Positions 15,557 to 22,007 of a stretch of DNA of 64,000 bases are shown here, one piece after another; position 1 is the stretch's first letter, and each line of letters starts with the position of its first letter. The DNA comes from Ferrovum sp. JA12 (lineage in GTDB: Bacteria > Pseudomonadota > Gammaproteobacteria > Burkholderiales > Ferrovaceae), in NCBI RefSeq assembly GCF_001431705.1, contig NZ_LJWX01000001.1:124001-188000 (forward strand), read 5' to 3'. Position numbers and translations under genes: made by a program. The notes under the pieces were generated by a model. That model was not told the DNA's origin. It ran no database searches and saw nothing but the letters and a program-made list of their open reading frames with translations.

Positions 15557-15699
15557 TAAAATCTATTACTTAGAAAACCAAGGTTTTCACCGTAGCACAT
15601 ACCGTGTGACACACCACCCGCAAAGTACCGAAGAATAAGGCTTTACTGGAGAAAAGCGTTCTAGCATATGGCTTAGAGCGGAGGGCTGTGGAAAAAAAT

Positions 15700-15714
15700 G
15701 TCGTTCAAAACGAC
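15700..15714. promoter_or_regulatory. Island palindrome 1, upstream of toxin-antitoxin operon
   Basis: The site is GTCGTT-CAA-AACGAC, a perfect 6+3+6 palindrome, 36 bp before the toxin start codon. A possible -10 (TAATAT, 15739-15744) lies between the two. The same motif recurs at 19363 and 21726 and as a half site at 21650. The Xre-type antitoxin encoded just downstream is the obvious candidate binder. Confidence 0.65.
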
Positions 15715-15750
15715 GCATAAACTTAGATTGTCTATTGTTAATATAAGCTC

Positions 15751-16074
15751 ATGAGTAATTCCATTACTTATTACAGCGAACAGGTCCAAGAGGACATCAT
15801 GAGCCTCCCAGAAACACTTCAAGCTCGCTATATTGGTTTAACTCAGAGGATGCTTGAGCATGACCCTAATTTAGGTTTGCCACACACAGATGCGTTTGGA
15901 GGTGGTTTATTTGAATTAAGACTAAAGGATGCTGAAGGAATTGCTAGGGTATTTTTCTGCACGATGGTGGAGCAAGAGATCGTCATGCTTCATAGTTTTA
16001 TTAAGAAGACCCAGAAGACACCTGATAAAGAATTAAAGATTGCGAAATCACGCATGAAGGAGTTAAAGACATGA
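15751..16074 (+). CDS. RelE/HigB-type toxin (Gp49-like)
   Basis: The protein is 107 residues and basic at the C-terminus. The segments GLPHTDAFGGGLFELRLKDAEGIARVFF and VMLHSFIKKTQKTP are characteristic of the phage-derived Gp49-like/RelE-HigB toxin family, which cleaves mRNA at the ribosome. The toxin-first order with a downstream antitoxin, overlapping by ATGA (16071-16074), is typical of HigBA-type operons. The palindrome at 15700 probably mediates autoregulation. Catalytic basic residues (K/R in the C-terminal half) are present, so it is probably active. Confidence 0.9.
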   Translation: MSNSITYYSEQVQEDIMSLPETLQARYIGLTQRMLEHDPNLGLPHTDAFGGGLFELRLKDAEGIARVFFCTMVEQEIVMLHSFIKKTQKTPDKELKIAKSRMKELKT

Positions 16075-16382
16075 CAACACAAAAGAAAACAAAAATACTT
16101 ACTCATAAACAAATGGTAAGCAAGATGATGAAGAATCCTGCTGTGAAGGCTACAGCGGAAGAACTAGATCGCACTGAGTTCGCGATTCTTGATGAAATCC
16201 TGGCAGCTAGAAAAGAGGCAGGGTTAACTCAAGCACAGGTAGCAAAGCGTATGGGTACACAAACTCCAGCTATTGCTAGGTTGGAAAATTCTTTAGCTAC
16301 AGGCAAGCATTCACCAAGTCTAAACACGATCAAGCGTTATGCGGCTGCTTTAGGCAAGAAGGTGGAGCTTCATTTGGTTTGA
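16071..16382 (+). CDS. Xre/HigA-type antitoxin
   Basis: The protein is 103 residues. The C-terminal two-thirds are a Cro/C1-type helix-turn-helix: EAGLTQAQVAKRMGTQTPAI followed by ARLENSL and SLNTIKRYAAALGKKVELHLV. It should neutralise the RelE-like toxin and repress the operon. Its start overlaps the toxin stop (ATGA). It is the only DNA-binding regulator visible in the island, hence the best candidate for recognising the repeated GTCGTT-N3-AACGAC palindrome. Confidence 0.92.
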   Translation: MTTQKKTKILTHKQMVSKMMKNPAVKATAEELDRTEFAILDEILAARKEAGLTQAQVAKRMGTQTPAIARLENSLATGKHSPSLNTIKRYAAALGKKVELHLV

Positions 16383-16919: not shown

Positions 16920-18272
16920 GAATATCGGAGGGTGTCCTGGATTTTGTGTAAACGGAATTCATTAATGTTGCGGCATCCGGTCGTCAAACTGGATAGTAAA
17001 CCGGTTTAGCGCCGCCTTCCAATCCCGAATGGGCATCGTCCATTTTTTGCTGATGTTTTGGATCGCCAGGTAGAACAGTTTCAGCAGCGCCTCATCAGTC
17101 GGAAACGAGCCACGATTCTTGGTGATTTTCCTCAGGCTCATGTTCAGCGATTCAATCGCATTAGTGGTGTAAATCACCCGGCGAATCTCCGGCGGATAGT
17201 CAAAGAACGGCGTGATGCGTATCCAGTTGCGCCGCCAGCTTTGGCCAATCGCCGGATAGTCTTTGTCCCACTTTTCCTCAAACGCCGTCAACTGCCGCTC
17301 CGCCTCATCCGCCGTGGCCGCGGTGTAAATGGCGCGCAGATCAGCGGCCACCTCTTTGCGCAGTTTCCAACCGACGTAATTCAGGCTGTAGCGCACCATA
17401 TGTACGATACAAAGCTGAACGGCGGTCTTGGGAAACACGGTTTCAATGGCTTCCGGGAAGCCCTTCAGCCCATCCACGCAGGCGATGAAGATGTCTTGCA
17501 CACCACGATTCTTCAATTCCGTGACCACCTGTAGCCAGAACTTGGCGCCTTCCGTTTGGGCGATCCAGATACCCAGTAATTCCTTCTCTCCATCGAGCTT
17601 GATGCCCAGCGCCAGATAGACTGCTTTAACGCGCACTGCGCCGTTATCCCGCACTTTTACATGAATACAATCCATATAAACAATTGGATACAGCGCATCC
17701 AGCGGCCGGGATTGCCACGCTTTGACTTCTTCGATGACGGCATCGGTCACCGCTGAAATCAGACTGGGCGACACCTCTGTGCCATACATTTCTTCCAGAT
17801 GACCCTGAATCTCACGCACCGTCATGCCACGACCGTACAAGGACAAAATCTTGTCGTCAAAGTCTGTCCAGCGGGTTTGATGTTTGGGGATCAGTTGCGG
17901 CTCAAAGCTGCTTTGCCGGTCGCGCGGAATTTCGATAGGCAATTCGCCAAACTCACCTTTGAGCGTCTTGCGGCTGGTGCCATTACGGGCGTTGCCAGCG
18001 GTATTGGCGATGGGCTCATGCTTGTCATGCCCAAGGTGGGCTTGCCATCTCGGCTTGCAGCGCACGTTCCACGACAGCCTTGGTGAGCTGTTTAAGCAAG
18101 CCATGCTCGCCCAGTATATCTTCGGGTTTCTGGTAGCCGGCCAGCAGTTGGTCAATCAAATCAGGCGAGGGGGATTTCTTTGTTACGGTCATGTTCACTT
18201 CCTTTTCAAAGTTAGGCAGATTTTCCTGCCAAATGACCGTTTACACAAAATTTCTTACACCCTCGGATATTC
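16920..18272 (-). mobile_element. IS256-family insertion sequence
   Basis: The element is 1353 bp with ~36-bp terminal inverted repeats at 16920-16955 and 18237-18272. They share GAATATC, GAGGGTGT and ATTTTGTGTAAACGG blocks, resembling the GTGTAAA-containing ends of IS256 relatives. The flanks (AAATTCTG left, GACTAATT right) do not match, so there is no target duplication. The left flank is an IS3 OrfA and the right flank is the McrB-like gene, so a deletion probably accompanied insertion or followed it. The composition is more GC-rich than the flanks. Confidence 0.85.
16962..18192 (-). pseudogene. IS256-family transposase with one frameshift
   Basis: The reading begins at 18192 (MTVTKKSPSPDLIDQLLAGY), runs through VVERALQAEMAS, then needs a -1 shift near 18037-18043, where CCC replaces an expected CC, to continue HLGHDKHEPIANTAG. 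The rest is a complete mutator-type transposase with DDE residues in YMDCIHVKVRD, ACVDGLKGFPEA and NAIESLNMSLRK. It is either inactivated by the extra base or a base-calling artefact. A start at 18155 without the N-terminus is less natural. Confidence 0.8.
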
Positions 18273-19304
18273 GACTAATTTCAGTCAATGTTTTGATGGG
18301 GCCTCCAGTACCAGGTAACTCTGCTTCTTCAGTAGCAACCCATTTAACTTGCCGGATATTTTTATGCTCTCTTCTGTCTGGGTCATCTACATAGTCAGAA
18401 GTAACTATACCGCCGCCTAGTATCTTTTTTCTCCCAACCTTGGCAATTACAAGGTCCCCCACATTAATTTCATGGGCAAATTGATAGCAACATAAAGAAT
18501 CATTCGTTGGGCTTTGAGCATCAGGGCCCCTAAGCCCGGACAACTTGGCCATTAATTCATCTTGATTCTTGTACTGAGATAAATCCCCTAAGTAGTCCCA
18601 ACCTATCGAAATAATTCCTTTTTCATAAGACTCATTCCATAAGCGACCACCTTCACCAAGACCAATAGCCCATATTTTCCTATTTGGGGCTTCACTCAAA
18701 TCTTCACCACAACTATCTTGCGATACATATTGCTTATAGCAATCAACAAGCTGTCCAAGATCTTTAATTAAATCTTCATTGCTAGGAATTTCATTTTTCT
18801 TGTAGTACTTTGAGTAGATTACTGATGCTTCATATAAGTTTGTGAGTGAACCTCGACCTTCATGTTTATTCACATAAACATCAAAATCAGTATTCATCAT
18901 ATTTGGAAACATTGCTCGAACTTGATCGGCCCGTCGCTGAAGCTCGTCCACAGCAGATGTTCCAGAGCCATATAACTCCTTAATTTCTGTAACACCTTGG
19001 CCTAACTTTAAATGACAACCATCTCCATCAGCACGGAATAAAATCACCACATAAGTACCTTTTTGAGTGGTAGTAGTTTCTCGTTTATCAAGTATGGCTA
19101 TCCAGGGGGTTTCAGCCCAATTACCTTTGCCATATGAATATTTAACTAACAAATTCTGATTGCCTTTAATAAACTCTAAGGCGCTAAATTCTCCCTTCAA
19201 TTTCCAAAGAGTGAGCGAATTTCGTGTTGACCACCAAACTGAGTACCTACTCTTGCGGCGGGATATTTTTCCAAAATTTCTTTTAAAATTTCACGCATGG
19301 CCAT
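18273..19304 (-). pseudogene. McrB-like restriction protein, frameshifted and truncated
   Basis: The reading starts at 19304 (MAMREILKEILEKYPAARVG). It shifts frame near 19200, where GGAAATTG would read on as GGAAAATTG, and continues KGEFSALEFIKGNQNLLVKY. This N-terminal part matches the MrcB_N (DUF3578) domain of McrB relatives. A second domain (KIWAIGLGEGGRLWNESYEKG, IISIGWDYLGDL, GDLVIAKVGRKKILGGGIV) resembles an EVE/PUA-type modified-base reader. The AAA+ GTPase motor and a McrC partner are missing: the gene is cut at the IS256 right end. It is non-functional as a restriction system. Confidence 0.75.
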
Positions 19305-19362
19305 TTCTAATAATTAGCAGACTTATCAATATAGCCTTCTTTGTTACTTTTGTTAATTTTTT

Positions 19363-19377
19363 GTGGTTTAAAACGAC
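19363..19377. promoter_or_regulatory. Island palindrome 2, between McrB-like and MazG-like genes
   Basis: GTGGTT-TAA-AACGAC differs from the perfect island palindrome by one base in the left arm. It lies in the divergent intergenic region, about 59 bp upstream of the McrB-like start and 45 bp upstream of the MazG-like start, so it could control both. Confidence 0.6.
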
Positions 19378-19422
19378 ATGTTTTTGAATAGCGAAGAAGA
19401 AAAACTGTAGTAGCATTACTTA

Positions 19423-19752
19423 ATGTCTGAAATATCTGAACTAATTCAAAAATTACTCTCCTTTAGAGATGTCCGCGATTGGAAGCAATTTCACAACCCC
19501 AAAGATCTTGCTATTGCCCTTTCCATTGAATCCGCTGAATTGTTGGAGGCGTTTCTGTGGAAATCCTCTGATGAGGCGTCAAAAGAAAAAATTGAAGAAG
19601 AATTGGCCGATGTTCTTGCCTATGCATTTCTTATAGCCCATGAATGTAATTTGGATATTTCAGAAATTGTTTCCGCAAAAATCGAGGCTAATAAATTAAA
19701 ATACCCAGTTGACAAAGTTAAGGGTAGCGCAAAAAAATATAACGAAATTTAA
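19423..19752 (+). CDS. MazG-like nucleotide pyrophosphohydrolase
   Basis: The protein is 109 residues, all-alpha, with the metal-binding glutamate pattern of the MazG/RS21-C6 group: SIESAELLEAFLWKS and IEEELADVLAYAFLIAHE. It also has a typical N-terminal FRDVRDWKQFHNPKDLAIAL. Members hydrolyse NTPs or dNTPs to monophosphates, clearing abnormal or excess nucleotides. In the island it is divergent from the McrB-like remnant and convergent with the DUF2075 ATPase, sharing TTAA as overlapping stops. Pairing with a nuclease/helicase suggests an antiviral nucleotide or DNA-targeting role, which is inference. Confidence 0.88.
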   Translation: MSEISELIQKLLSFRDVRDWKQFHNPKDLAIALSIESAELLEAFLWKSSDEASKEKIEEELADVLAYAFLIAHECNLDISEIVSAKIEANKLKYPVDKVKGSAKKYNEI

Positions 19753-21623
19753 TTTCTAGTCTTCAACCTATCTTCAAAATAAGTATTAGTCTCAGGGTCA
19801 GTGCAAAAAATATAACAACCCTTCATCCCTCTTGTCATCAAGGTTCTATAAGTATTCCTAATAATTGAATCAACTCTTTTTGTTGCCAACTCTGGGCTCT
19901 CTTTCATCAGTTTTTTATAGCCACTAATTGATTTGTCCGTCTTTGCTCTCGCACTAGGGTTAGTCAAGACCTCTCCATTGCGTACAATTAAATCGCTGCC
20001 AATAATTACACCTATGTAATCAACCTCTAAACCTTGGCAAGTGTGAATACAACCAATTTCACTTACTGAATTTGGCGCCTGGATCCACAAAGACCCATCG
20101 GTATCTAAATTCCATTGCATAGTAAAATTGTGCTCAGGAAAATTTATATCAAATAAAGATTTATCTGCCTTACTAATCCAGTTCCAACAGTACCCCGCAA
20201 CAATTCTTGCTTTATTGTTAATTTTATTTTTTTCAAAAATTAATTCTTTTAACTCTGTAGGAGTCGATAAAACACGAAAATCATATTCACTACTATTAAG
20301 AGATTTATTAGCAGTTTCTCTAATCCCCAAAACATCGTCTAACCAAGCGAGATATCCATCAGAACCATTGCACCTAAATTGTGACTCAAGAACCATATGA
20401 TGAACGGTTGCCCCATTGATTTCCGCCCACTTTTCAATTTCTTGAGAACTTCCAATATCACTAAAGCTCACCCTCTGATCTTCATCGACAAAGAAAATTG
20501 ATAGCTTGCTAGATTTAATAATTTCTTTGACCTGATTTTCACCTATGTTCTTAAATATACCTGATTTTTCATTCAGCCTATGGGCCTCATCGACAATGAG
20601 TACATCAAAGGTGTTGGCTTCTAAAGAATGGAAAGAGCCAGACCCAGTGAATAAATTTGAAATGGCTGTTTTCTTCATTGAGCCAGTTAATTTGGCTTCA
20701 TAAACTGCTCTTGGTGCGGCATTTTTCGTAATGTATTGGGCTAATAATCTATGTTGTTGAATAAGATTGACGAGTAAATTAACAGCGACCACCGACTTTC
20801 CCGTACCTGGACCACCCTGAACAATTAACACGTTTTTGTTTGTCGGCGTTGATTGATTTGCTAATTTAATTGCTGTTTCATAAACTAGTTTTTGTTCATC
20901 AAGCATGATAAATTCAGAATTACCACCTATCATTTTTGCGAGGCAATCAGCTAAGCTTTTAGAAGGCTTTATTTTTCCGTTTTCTATACGTAACATCAAA
21001 TTTGATTTATCGCCATACCTGATTAAATTCTTAATGAAGAACTTTAATTTTTCCTTTTCCTCTTTTCCTTTAAGAAATACTGGGGCTTTTTCAATGTAAG
21101 GCTGATAAAAACTATTTTTTATTACATTATCTTCTATGTAATTGTGCAAATAAGCACAAGGCGCCAAATGAATATTCTCCGAATATACCGTCTCATTCAA
21201 TTGATTTAGTAATTCGCTATACGACCATGCTTGATAAGATGGATGACTTGTTTCAACTAGACCATGCTGAAACCTTGTTTTAACAACAGCATCTTTATCA
21301 GTTAACTCTGCTGATTCCCATTGCTTCAACTCAATAATGACAACTTGATCGTCTTTATTTTGATTTTGGCCAGTAATTACAAAATCAATTCTTTTGGAGG
21401 TTTGCGGTATCGAATACTCAATACTCACCCCCACATCACTTGGGATATCTTGATCTCCAATCACCGCACCCATAAACCTCATTGACTCTTGCCATGATCT
21501 CAATTCATTTTTTGCAACCTTGCGACCTGTTTTTTTGATATAAGTTGCTTCGATAATCTCGTGTATTTCATTTGAGATCAAATTTTTTAAAAACTGGTCT
21601 TTGTTTGACTGGTAAATAATCAT
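19749..21623 (-). CDS. DUF2075 nuclease/SF1-helicase-like ATPase
   Basis: The protein is 624 residues. The N-terminal ~200 residues contain RIDFVITGQN and VVIIELKQW, resembling the D...ExK core of PD-(D/E)XK nucleases. The ATPase domain has Walker A GGPGTGKS near residue 270, Walker B VLIVDEAHRLNE near 345, FFVDEDQRVSF, and the C-terminal helicase-like motifs IHTCQGLEVDYIGVIIG and RNTYRTLMTRGMKG. This is the DUF2075 architecture, often found in defence or mobile islands. The exact function is unproven. One perfect palindrome and one half site lie upstream. It appears intact. Confidence 0.85.
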   Translation of the reverse strand: MIIYQSNKDQFLKNLISNEIHEIIEATYIKKTGRKVAKNELRSWQESMRFMGAVIGDQDIPSDVGVSIEYSIPQTSKRIDFVITGQNQNKDDQVVIIELKQWESAELTDKDAVVKTRFQHGLVETSHPSYQAWSYSELLNQLNETVYSENIHLAPCAYLHNYIEDNVIKNSFYQPYIEKAPVFLKGKEEKEKLKFFIKNLIRYGDKSNLMLRIENGKIKPSKSLADCLAKMIGGNSEFIMLDEQKLVYETAIKLANQSTPTNKNVLIVQGGPGTGKSVVAVNLLVNLIQQHRLLAQYITKNAAPRAVYEAKLTGSMKKTAISNLFTGSGSFHSLEANTFDVLIVDEAHRLNEKSGIFKNIGENQVKEIIKSSKLSIFFVDEDQRVSFSDIGSSQEIEKWAEINGATVHHMVLESQFRCNGSDGYLAWLDDVLGIRETANKSLNSSEYDFRVLSTPTELKELIFEKNKINNKARIVAGYCWNWISKADKSLFDINFPEHNFTMQWNLDTDGSLWIQAPNSVSEIGCIHTCQGLEVDYIGVIIGSDLIVRNGEVLTNPSARAKTDKSISGYKKLMKESPELATKRVDSIIRNTYRTLMTRGMKGCYIFCTDPETNTYFEDRLKTRN

Positions 21624-21649
21624 TTACTATTAATCATAAGTTTGATTTA

Positions 21650-21655
21650 AACGAC
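21650..21655. promoter_or_regulatory. Island palindrome half site upstream of DUF2075 gene
   Basis: AACGAC, within TTTAAACGACG, lies 27 bp upstream of the DUF2075 start codon. The left arm is degenerate (3 of 6 bases), so this is only a candidate second binding site next to the perfect palindrome at 21726. Confidence 0.35.
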
Positions 21656-21725
21656 GTTACCTGAATAAGGTATTTCTTTCTAGCAATTTTTATAAAATTT
21701 TTGCAACAATGCCTCACAAAAACTT

Positions 21726-21740
21726 GTCGTTTTAAACGAC
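21726..21740. promoter_or_regulatory. Island palindrome 3, upstream of DUF2075 gene
   Basis: GTCGTT-TTA-AACGAC sits at the centre of a perfect 19-bp palindrome (21724-21742). It is the best copy of the motif shared across the island and lies about 100 bp upstream of the DUF2075 start on the minus strand. Confidence 0.65.
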
Positions 21741-21822
21741 AAATTCTGTACAAAAGGTGTGTACCGTTCTCGACCGTAGAAAACACCATTTCTTATGACG
21801 ACAGAACTTAAGCTATTTCATA

Positions 21823-21851
21823 TTGCGGGATAGGGCGATTTTTGCTATACT
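21823..21851 (+). promoter_or_regulatory. Sigma-70 promoter of tRNA-Met
   Basis: The sequence is TTGCGG (21823-21828), a 17-bp spacer and TATACT (21846-21851), ending 10 bp before the mature tRNA-Met. The decayed copy at 15482 has no comparable promoter, which marks the right copy as the working gene. Confidence 0.7.
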
Positions 21852-21861
21852 TTCGCTCTTT

Positions 21862-21938
<77 letters not shown>

Positions 21939-22007
21939 CTTTCACTCGCACCTAACAATTACCATCAAAACATTATGAATCTTTCCCATTTAGGGGGGCA
22001 GTTTTAA

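Follow-up and report, generated by a model that had tools for sequence, protein, structure and literature searches.

A DCTPP1-type MazG gene paired with an SLFN-g3 nuclease-helicase gene in Ferrovum sp. JA12 and in many other microbes

Here, we describe two convergent genes in a 64,000-nucleotide stretch of DNA from Ferrovum sp. JA12 (contig NZ_LJWX01000001.1, positions 124,001 to 188,000; hereafter, the window), encoding a MazG-like NTP pyrophosphohydrolase and a predicted nuclease-helicase. Since genes of these two kinds lie side by side in many unrelated microbes, their products very probably work together. We favor, as a serious possibility still short of an even chance, the view that they constitute one mobile DNA-conflict (defense) module, in which the partner enzyme would clear a dCTP-type, perhaps modified, triphosphate. 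A preliminary description of this DNA had reported two intact genes that face each other and share overlapping stops in TTAA, with a palindrome upstream of each. This arrangement was confirmed: both open reading frames (ORFs) are open and convergent, their TAA stops overlap within TTAA at 19749-19752, and each gene is preceded by a 17-bp palindrome. The relevant features of the window are as follows.

19423..19752, + strand: MazG-like (DCTPP1-type) NTP pyrophosphohydrolase gene, 109 amino acids, stop included (ORF, Pfam PF12643, profile relatives)
19749..21623, - strand: nuclease-helicase gene, 624 amino acids, stop included (ORF, Pfam PF09848, model)
20979..21623, - strand: predicted PD-(D/E)XK-type nuclease domain, residues 1-215 (D80/E98/K100, model, Can2 match)
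19761..20930, - strand: SF1-type helicase core, residues 232-621 (Pfam 263-609; UvrD and SLFN11 matches)
19362..19378, no strand assigned: palindrome copy (17 bp) before the MazG-like gene, candidate operator (pattern search)
21725..21741, no strand assigned: palindrome copy (17 bp) before the nuclease-helicase gene, candidate operator (pattern search)
15699..15715, no strand assigned: third palindrome copy, before a Gp49/HTH (HigBA-like) gene pair (pattern search)

The larger protein matches PF09848 SLFN-g3, presumably the former DUF2075, along the entire profile (positions 1-354 of 354; E value of 1.6e-102, 343.9 bits, cut-off 24), with the Pfam match spanning residues 263-609. In a full-length AlphaFold2 model (pLDDT 87.8), the helicase part matches UvrD (Z 21.3), SLFN11 (Z 19.5), and RecD2. 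Across 25 aligned relatives, neither the Walker A motif GGPGTGK nor residues D80, E98, and K100 vary; these three residues, which are of the PD-(D/E)XK type, are invariant in 31/31 relatives. Modeled alone (mean pLDDT 94.4), the N-terminal domain aligns best with nuclease-bearing chains, namely Can2 (Z 9.6, rmsd 3.3, 140 residues) and at lower scores EndoMS (Z 6.4) and NucC (Z 5.9), all of which we take to belong to the PD-(D/E)XK fold class. Since the D...(E/D)xK residues come with the fold typical of such enzymes, as judged from the Can2 match, this domain is a predicted PD-(D/E)XK-type nuclease, although Foldseek by itself returned nothing better than an E value of 6.9e-3. Both the PD-(D/E)XK-like and the SF1-helicase-like features ascribed to the protein at the outset therefore hold.

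The smaller protein matches PF12643 (E value of 5.1e-18, 65.6 bits, cut-off 27), and its residues E36, E39, E60, and D63 are present in 23/23 aligned MazG relatives. Together with this profile match, the acidic ExxE...ExxD motif, which we regard as the mark of all-alpha NTP pyrophosphohydrolases, places the protein in that group. In a search with a profile of the 23 relatives, the best named solved relatives were dCTP pyrophosphatase 1 and RS21-C6 (E value of 5.9e-30), and 4qgp, labeled just "pyrophosphatase," scored slightly above them. This kinship suggests a dCTP-type triphosphate as the substrate. No PADLOC family matched the protein. The domain assignment made at the outset holds, but the expectation that the protein depletes nucleotides has to be refined: for DCTPP1/RS21-C6, the closest named solved relatives, sanitizing the pool is no less likely a role than depleting it. 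The window MazG retains the catalytic acidic residues; DCTPP1/RS21-C6 is a stand-alone house-cleaning enzyme, whereas the window MazG adjoins a nuclease-helicase. Escherichia coli Orf135 is, we assume, a NUDIX enzyme. In the accessible part of one paper, RS21-C6/DCTPP1 and Orf135 are cited as 5-methyl-dCTP hydrolases and DCTPP1 as a house-cleaning enzyme (PMC10742078).

Contigs were scanned for the helicase with six peptide patterns taken from the window protein, a choice that favors close relatives, and this yielded 53 loci from Pseudomonadota, Bacillota, Bacteroidota, one cyanobacterium, and one Saccharibacterium. In 37/53, no more than 600 bp separate the helicase from a DCTPP1-type MazG, detected with a profile built from these same loci. 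This number includes L052, where the helicase is represented by a C-terminal fragment alone, L008, whose MazG is truncated at the beginning of the contig, and L040 and L046, in which the helicase is spread over more than one frame. MazG is located downstream on the same strand in 22 of the 37 loci, upstream on the same strand in 11, and convergently, as in the window, in 4; in all three layouts adjacency is immediate and often overlapping. A PRA-PH-like gene takes the place of MazG directly downstream of the helicase in L042, L043, and L054 (all Paenibacillus), and a NUDIX gene does so in L023 and L047, bringing the loci with an adjacent NTP pyrophosphatase of any of the three families to 42/53. 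These counts do not represent independent events, since many loci are near-relatives from Lachnospiraceae and three are from Paenibacillus. No partner was seen at the helicase in 11/53 loci. In six of these the contig ends too early (L005, L018, L031, L039, L051, and L053), L050 carries a truncated helicase, and in L010 about 6 kb lie between MazG and the helicase. The flanks of L012, L022, and L033 are ample, yet no partner adjoins the helicase, L033 showing a Macro-domain gene there. When both flanks exceed 500 bp, 36/41 loci have an NTP pyrophosphatase neighbor, which makes it less likely that the two genes are mere neighbors.

Two genome samples led in the same direction. Within the window's phylum, a profile search of 398 genomes detected the helicase in 9 genomes (10 matches), and MazG adjoins it in 9/9, window included; as exceptions, a second helicase copy in G298 has no MazG, and stop codons interrupt the MazG of G033. 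The second sample was drawn from the class of G398 and comprised 291 genomes; G398 was its center and had been chosen for having the pair. Here, the helicase was found in 23 genomes, MazG in 34, both in 18, and both adjacent in 17 (17/23 helicase-bearing genomes, or 16/22 with G398 left out). The exceptions were partial genes near contig ends (G536, G670, and G591), a helicase with only 155 bp of downstream sequence (G431), a split helicase with MazG elsewhere (G571), and a divergent 947-amino-acid protein (G473). A Fisher test on the co-occurrence of helicase and MazG per genome gave p values of 2.7e-7 for 397 genomes, the window being excluded, and 2.7e-15 for the 291 genomes. The preliminary description had proposed to look for a conserved MazG-like/DUF2075 neighborhood across genomes and had held that its absence would speak against a joint system; instead, the pairing proved to be widely conserved. 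That two mobile genes are carried jointly with no common task is hardly tenable. It is in keeping with such a view that each kind of gene also occurs alone: the MazG profile matches 64/398 genomes, most of them without the helicase. However, the immediate adjacency in three layouts, the co-occurrence statistics, and the replacement of MazG by other NTP pyrophosphatases all argue against it.

Outside bacteria, a Halalkalicoccus plasmid and the Microcystis phage Mwe-JY31 record both contain the pair. Among plasmids, 32 records match the helicase, and MazG is present in 4/7 and absent in 3/7 of the regions examined; phage records gave four helicase matches, one of which was examined. Viral contigs contain at least three helicase relatives, and among the matches listed, MazG lies directly upstream in L152 (34% identity), with no MazG directly upstream in L153 (partial) and L154 (weak). 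The low GC content of the window locus (0.356 in 20001-22000) and absence of the nuclease-helicase from three other genomes of the genus fit a mobile unit. A tRNA-linked integration was considered, but the 3' end of tRNA-Met (21862-21938) is not repeated in the window at up to three mismatches, so no att pair is claimed. Elsewhere, positions 1-2000 of the window have a GC content of 0.63 versus 0.36-0.49 in the remainder, which suggests a different origin for that part. In the Microcystis phage record (L065:14131-18365), a TPR-repeat protein precedes MazG and the helicase, and related proteins were found in L036, L068, and L010. Upstream of the window pair, an MrcB_N (McrB-type DNA-binding) protein at 18241-19200, which may represent a truncated McrB-like gene, ends next to a transposase ORF at 16962-18155 that appears IS256-like by eye. 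An MrcB_N gene is also located immediately 5' of MazG and the helicase on a Priestia plasmid (L071). We rejected MrcB_N as a general third component: of the loci searched, no others than the window and L071 have it next to the pair.

Repeated REARRANGEMENT and module exchange are indicated by a tree of 88 MazG domains, on which paired and solo MazGs are intermixed. The tree demands at least 17 pair/solo changes and at least 24 layout changes, and it has 109 columns, 88 rows, and few firm branches; some of the rows are scored as solo only because the helicase is truncated or its distance exceeds 600 bp. Around MazGs that are not beside the helicase, 0/20 regions contained such a helicase (MazG itself being visible in 18/20 gene lists). 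Given the variable order and strand and the mixing of paired and solo MazGs, the pairing has changed repeatedly. The nuclease half varies as well. In L061-L063, a GIY-YIG-like N terminus replaces the PD-(D/E)XK domain and MazG is kept; PF01541 is just under the cut-off in L061 and L063 and unreported at an E value of 0.001 in L062, and PDC-S14 matches L062 and L063. The MazGs of these loci group in the tree set of the window MazG, the one of L063 being 58% identical to it. A separate observation concerns L002:978-1979, directly before the helicase, which encodes an HNH-like nuclease part and a HIT (histidine triad) nucleotide-hydrolase part; L005 has a relative with 61% identity.

Eight relatives (L008, L011, L049, L056, L057, L062, L063, and L067) carry a C-terminal S24 (LexA/UmuD-like) domain, fused to the helicase in seven and encoded by a separate overlapping frame in L067; six of the fusions were detected by Pfam PF00717 and that of L008 by a purpose-built profile only. 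In LexA and UmuD, an A/C-G dipeptide, a Ser, and a Lys form the cleavage site and the autoprotease residues, and all are present in 8/8 of these domains. The S24 fusions are as suggestive of DNA damage as of phage. This raises the alternative of a function in genome maintenance, in which an SOS-linked repair unit would combine a helicase that handles damaged or stalled DNA with a pyrophosphatase that cleans damaged dNTPs. The resemblance of the NUDIX neighbors to MutT as well as NudG, and the house-cleaning role of DCTPP1 in the accessible literature, agree with it. Yet the helicase is patchily distributed (9/398 and 23/291 genomes), copies occur on plasmids and in a phage, some loci have restriction-type neighbors, and the window protein has no S24 domain, placing it outside the S24-regulated forms. 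Overall, we consider a maintenance unit improbable.

Further hints come from the genes surrounding the pair. In a PADLOC scan of 148/161 neighbor genes (13 of L045 and L050-L053 were left out), mREase_IV matches 9/148 proteins and REase_I up to 8 among the best 25 of 113 families; in 65/66 control genes (one with unread bases was left out), no family has more than one member among the best 25 of 96 families. We do not claim an overall enrichment of defense families beside the helicase, as the comparison rests on these best 25/113 and 25/96 families. PLD-DEAD-DUF3427 neighbors match SauUSI over nearly its full length (7clg; E value of 7.7e-200 for L048). Such SauUSI-like genes neighbor some loci, and most of the 53 show none in the stretch covered. 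L029 and L048 contain four-gene runs of NUDIX, SauUSI-like, MazG, and helicase genes in opposite orders. SauUSI is a type IV restriction enzyme that cuts DNA containing 5mC or 5hmC, according to the accessible part of its description (PMC7913695). We surveyed 30 of the 62 SauUSI-like matches from the 291 genomes (Clostridia-like; L121-L150) and found a NUDIX gene nearby in 17/30 loci, in several layouts and orientations, counting one about 900 bp away and one split between frames; a PRA-PH-like gene was present at 2/30. As background, a Nudix box occurred in 1/20 regions, a figure that is indicative only, having been obtained with a stricter motif test in other regions. The closest solved relative of the L047 NUDIX protein is a putative CTP pyrophosphohydrolase (1e-28), followed by others, among them MutT2 (1.1e-19) and CTP pyrophosphohydrolase 2rrk (5.5e-18), ahead of MutT 1mut (3.4e-12). 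The NudG-like model outscores PRK10776 MutT in L047 and L029, the reverse holds for L048, and TIGR00586 mutt is about equal; with NudG and MutT models scoring about equally, assignment of the NUDIX neighbors to the NudG type is not established.

Taken together, this gene context points indirectly to a modified pyrimidine precursor as the molecule that the partner would clear. A more general idea, which we put forward tentatively, is that modification-sensing nuclease-helicases travel with a pool enzyme destroying the free modified dNTP. The former would include this SLFN-g3 family and SauUSI-like enzymes, the latter DCTPP1-type MazG, NudG-like NUDIX, or PRA-PH-like proteins. If true, modified bases would be policed at two levels, DNA and the precursor pool, self-marking would be prevented, and phages hiding behind modified cytosine would be disarmed. 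In L102:1070-3394, we also noticed a helicase-less MazG that adjoins a DUF262/GmrSD-like gene (by eye), another modified-DNA restriction type.

Under the module reading, the nuclease-helicase would load on invading or abnormal DNA, translocate, and cut, and its MazG partner would hydrolyze a dCTP-type triphosphate to the monophosphate. The substrate would most likely be 5-modified dCTP, or dCTP itself; 5-methyl-dCTP has precedent as a substrate, and 5-hydroxymethyl-dCTP would be an extrapolation. The partner might serve self-protection by preventing the nuclease-triggering mark from entering host DNA, it might serve attack by depriving the phage of a precursor, or both. An antiviral role is plausible in view of distant defense relatives and of the neighbors in some loci, and viruses are the most likely target. 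Depletion of dNTPs is a known defense strategy, and a second explanation, rather unlikely in our estimate, makes it the core of the system: MazG would hydrolyze dCTP (or several dNTPs) upon infection and starve phage replication, and the nuclease-helicase would meanwhile sense or attack phage DNA. The DCTPP1-type active site would suit this task, as would the ability of NTP pyrophosphatases of three families to occupy the partner place. Nevertheless, no sensor or switch was seen for MazG itself, and close relatives of it stand by themselves among ordinary genes, so it is not evidently toxic. The favored module, if real, would explain the presence of house-cleaning pyrophosphatases beside DNA-cutting helicases and predicts that the pool enzyme and the nuclease recognize one and the same base. 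As a two-gene unit in which either half is exchanged in natural variants, it would provide a route into the cooperation of nucleotide metabolism and DNA restriction.

Among known systems, Nhi of staphylococci and AbiO share the helicase family (PADLOC E values of 3.5e-13 and 5.2e-13, respectively), and Nhi likewise unites nuclease and helicase in one protein. However, neither match extends beyond the helicase part (residues about 236-419), so that the N-terminal nuclease is left uncovered; for Nhi, the best stretch comprises positions 183-331 of the 470 in the profile, again in the helicase part. Nhi is described as a single-gene anti-phage system linked to phage SSB, and the accessible part of its description mentions no pyrophosphatase partner (PMC12904381), whereas the window helicase has MazG. 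The best PADLOC match of the helicase, PDC-S41 (E value of 2e-15, in two stretches only), is a predicted single-gene candidate, in contrast to the two genes of the window. SauUSI is a nuclease-helicase too, and its relatives likewise lie near an NTP pyrophosphatase, the NUDIX protein mentioned above. It combines a PLD nuclease with an SF2 ATPase in the accessible description (PMC7913695), whereas the window protein combines PD-(D/E)XK with SF1 and has no PLD match in Pfam, which sets it apart from the SauUSI family with its PLD nuclease, SF2 ATPase, and recognition domain; SauUSI-like proteins are neighbors at some loci and not homologs. Nuclease and helicase likewise cooperate in Hachiman (HamAB), and 8zue of this system is a weak structural match to the window N-terminal domain (Z 4.5). 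According to the accessible sources, though, Hachiman encodes them as two genes, with no pyrophosphatase named, whereas they are fused in the window protein. The accessible main text of DefensePredictor lists NTP pyrophosphohydrolase (MazG) among predicted, unvalidated defense domains without DUF2075, Schlafen, or helicase, and its MazG system, compared by that text, may or may not be this pair (PMC13092281). In the open-access literature, outside of which most subscription papers and preprints lie, we found no description of the MazG/nuclease-helicase pair, nor, in the accessible parts, a link between SauUSI and Nudix. The pair could be viewed as a variant of nuclease-helicase defense with a possibly new principle.

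The palindrome TGTCGTTTTAAACGACA is situated at 21725-21741, 101 bases ahead of the helicase start. Its copies at 19362-19378, 44 bases ahead of MazG, and at 15699-15715, 35 bases ahead of a Gp49/HigB-like gene, have one to two mismatches on the better strand. Counting both strands, there are six matches, whereas 100 shuffles average 0.21 and 0/100 reach six. Genome-wide, five sites have up to two mismatches, and 3/5 fall in this 6-kb stretch; sites with three mismatches are no commoner than those of a reversed control pattern. A search of L002-L005 and L052 detected no copy of the palindrome beside the pair; the strict form TGTCG-N5..9-CGACA is absent in L002, L004, L005, and L052, and L003 has one unrelated-looking match away from the pair. 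With a copy before each of them, both convergent genes of the window may answer to one regulator. The Gp49 (PF05973) and HTH genes at 15751-16382 form a HigBA-like pair that carries its own palindrome copy, and the HTH protein of this pair is a candidate regulator for the whole stretch.
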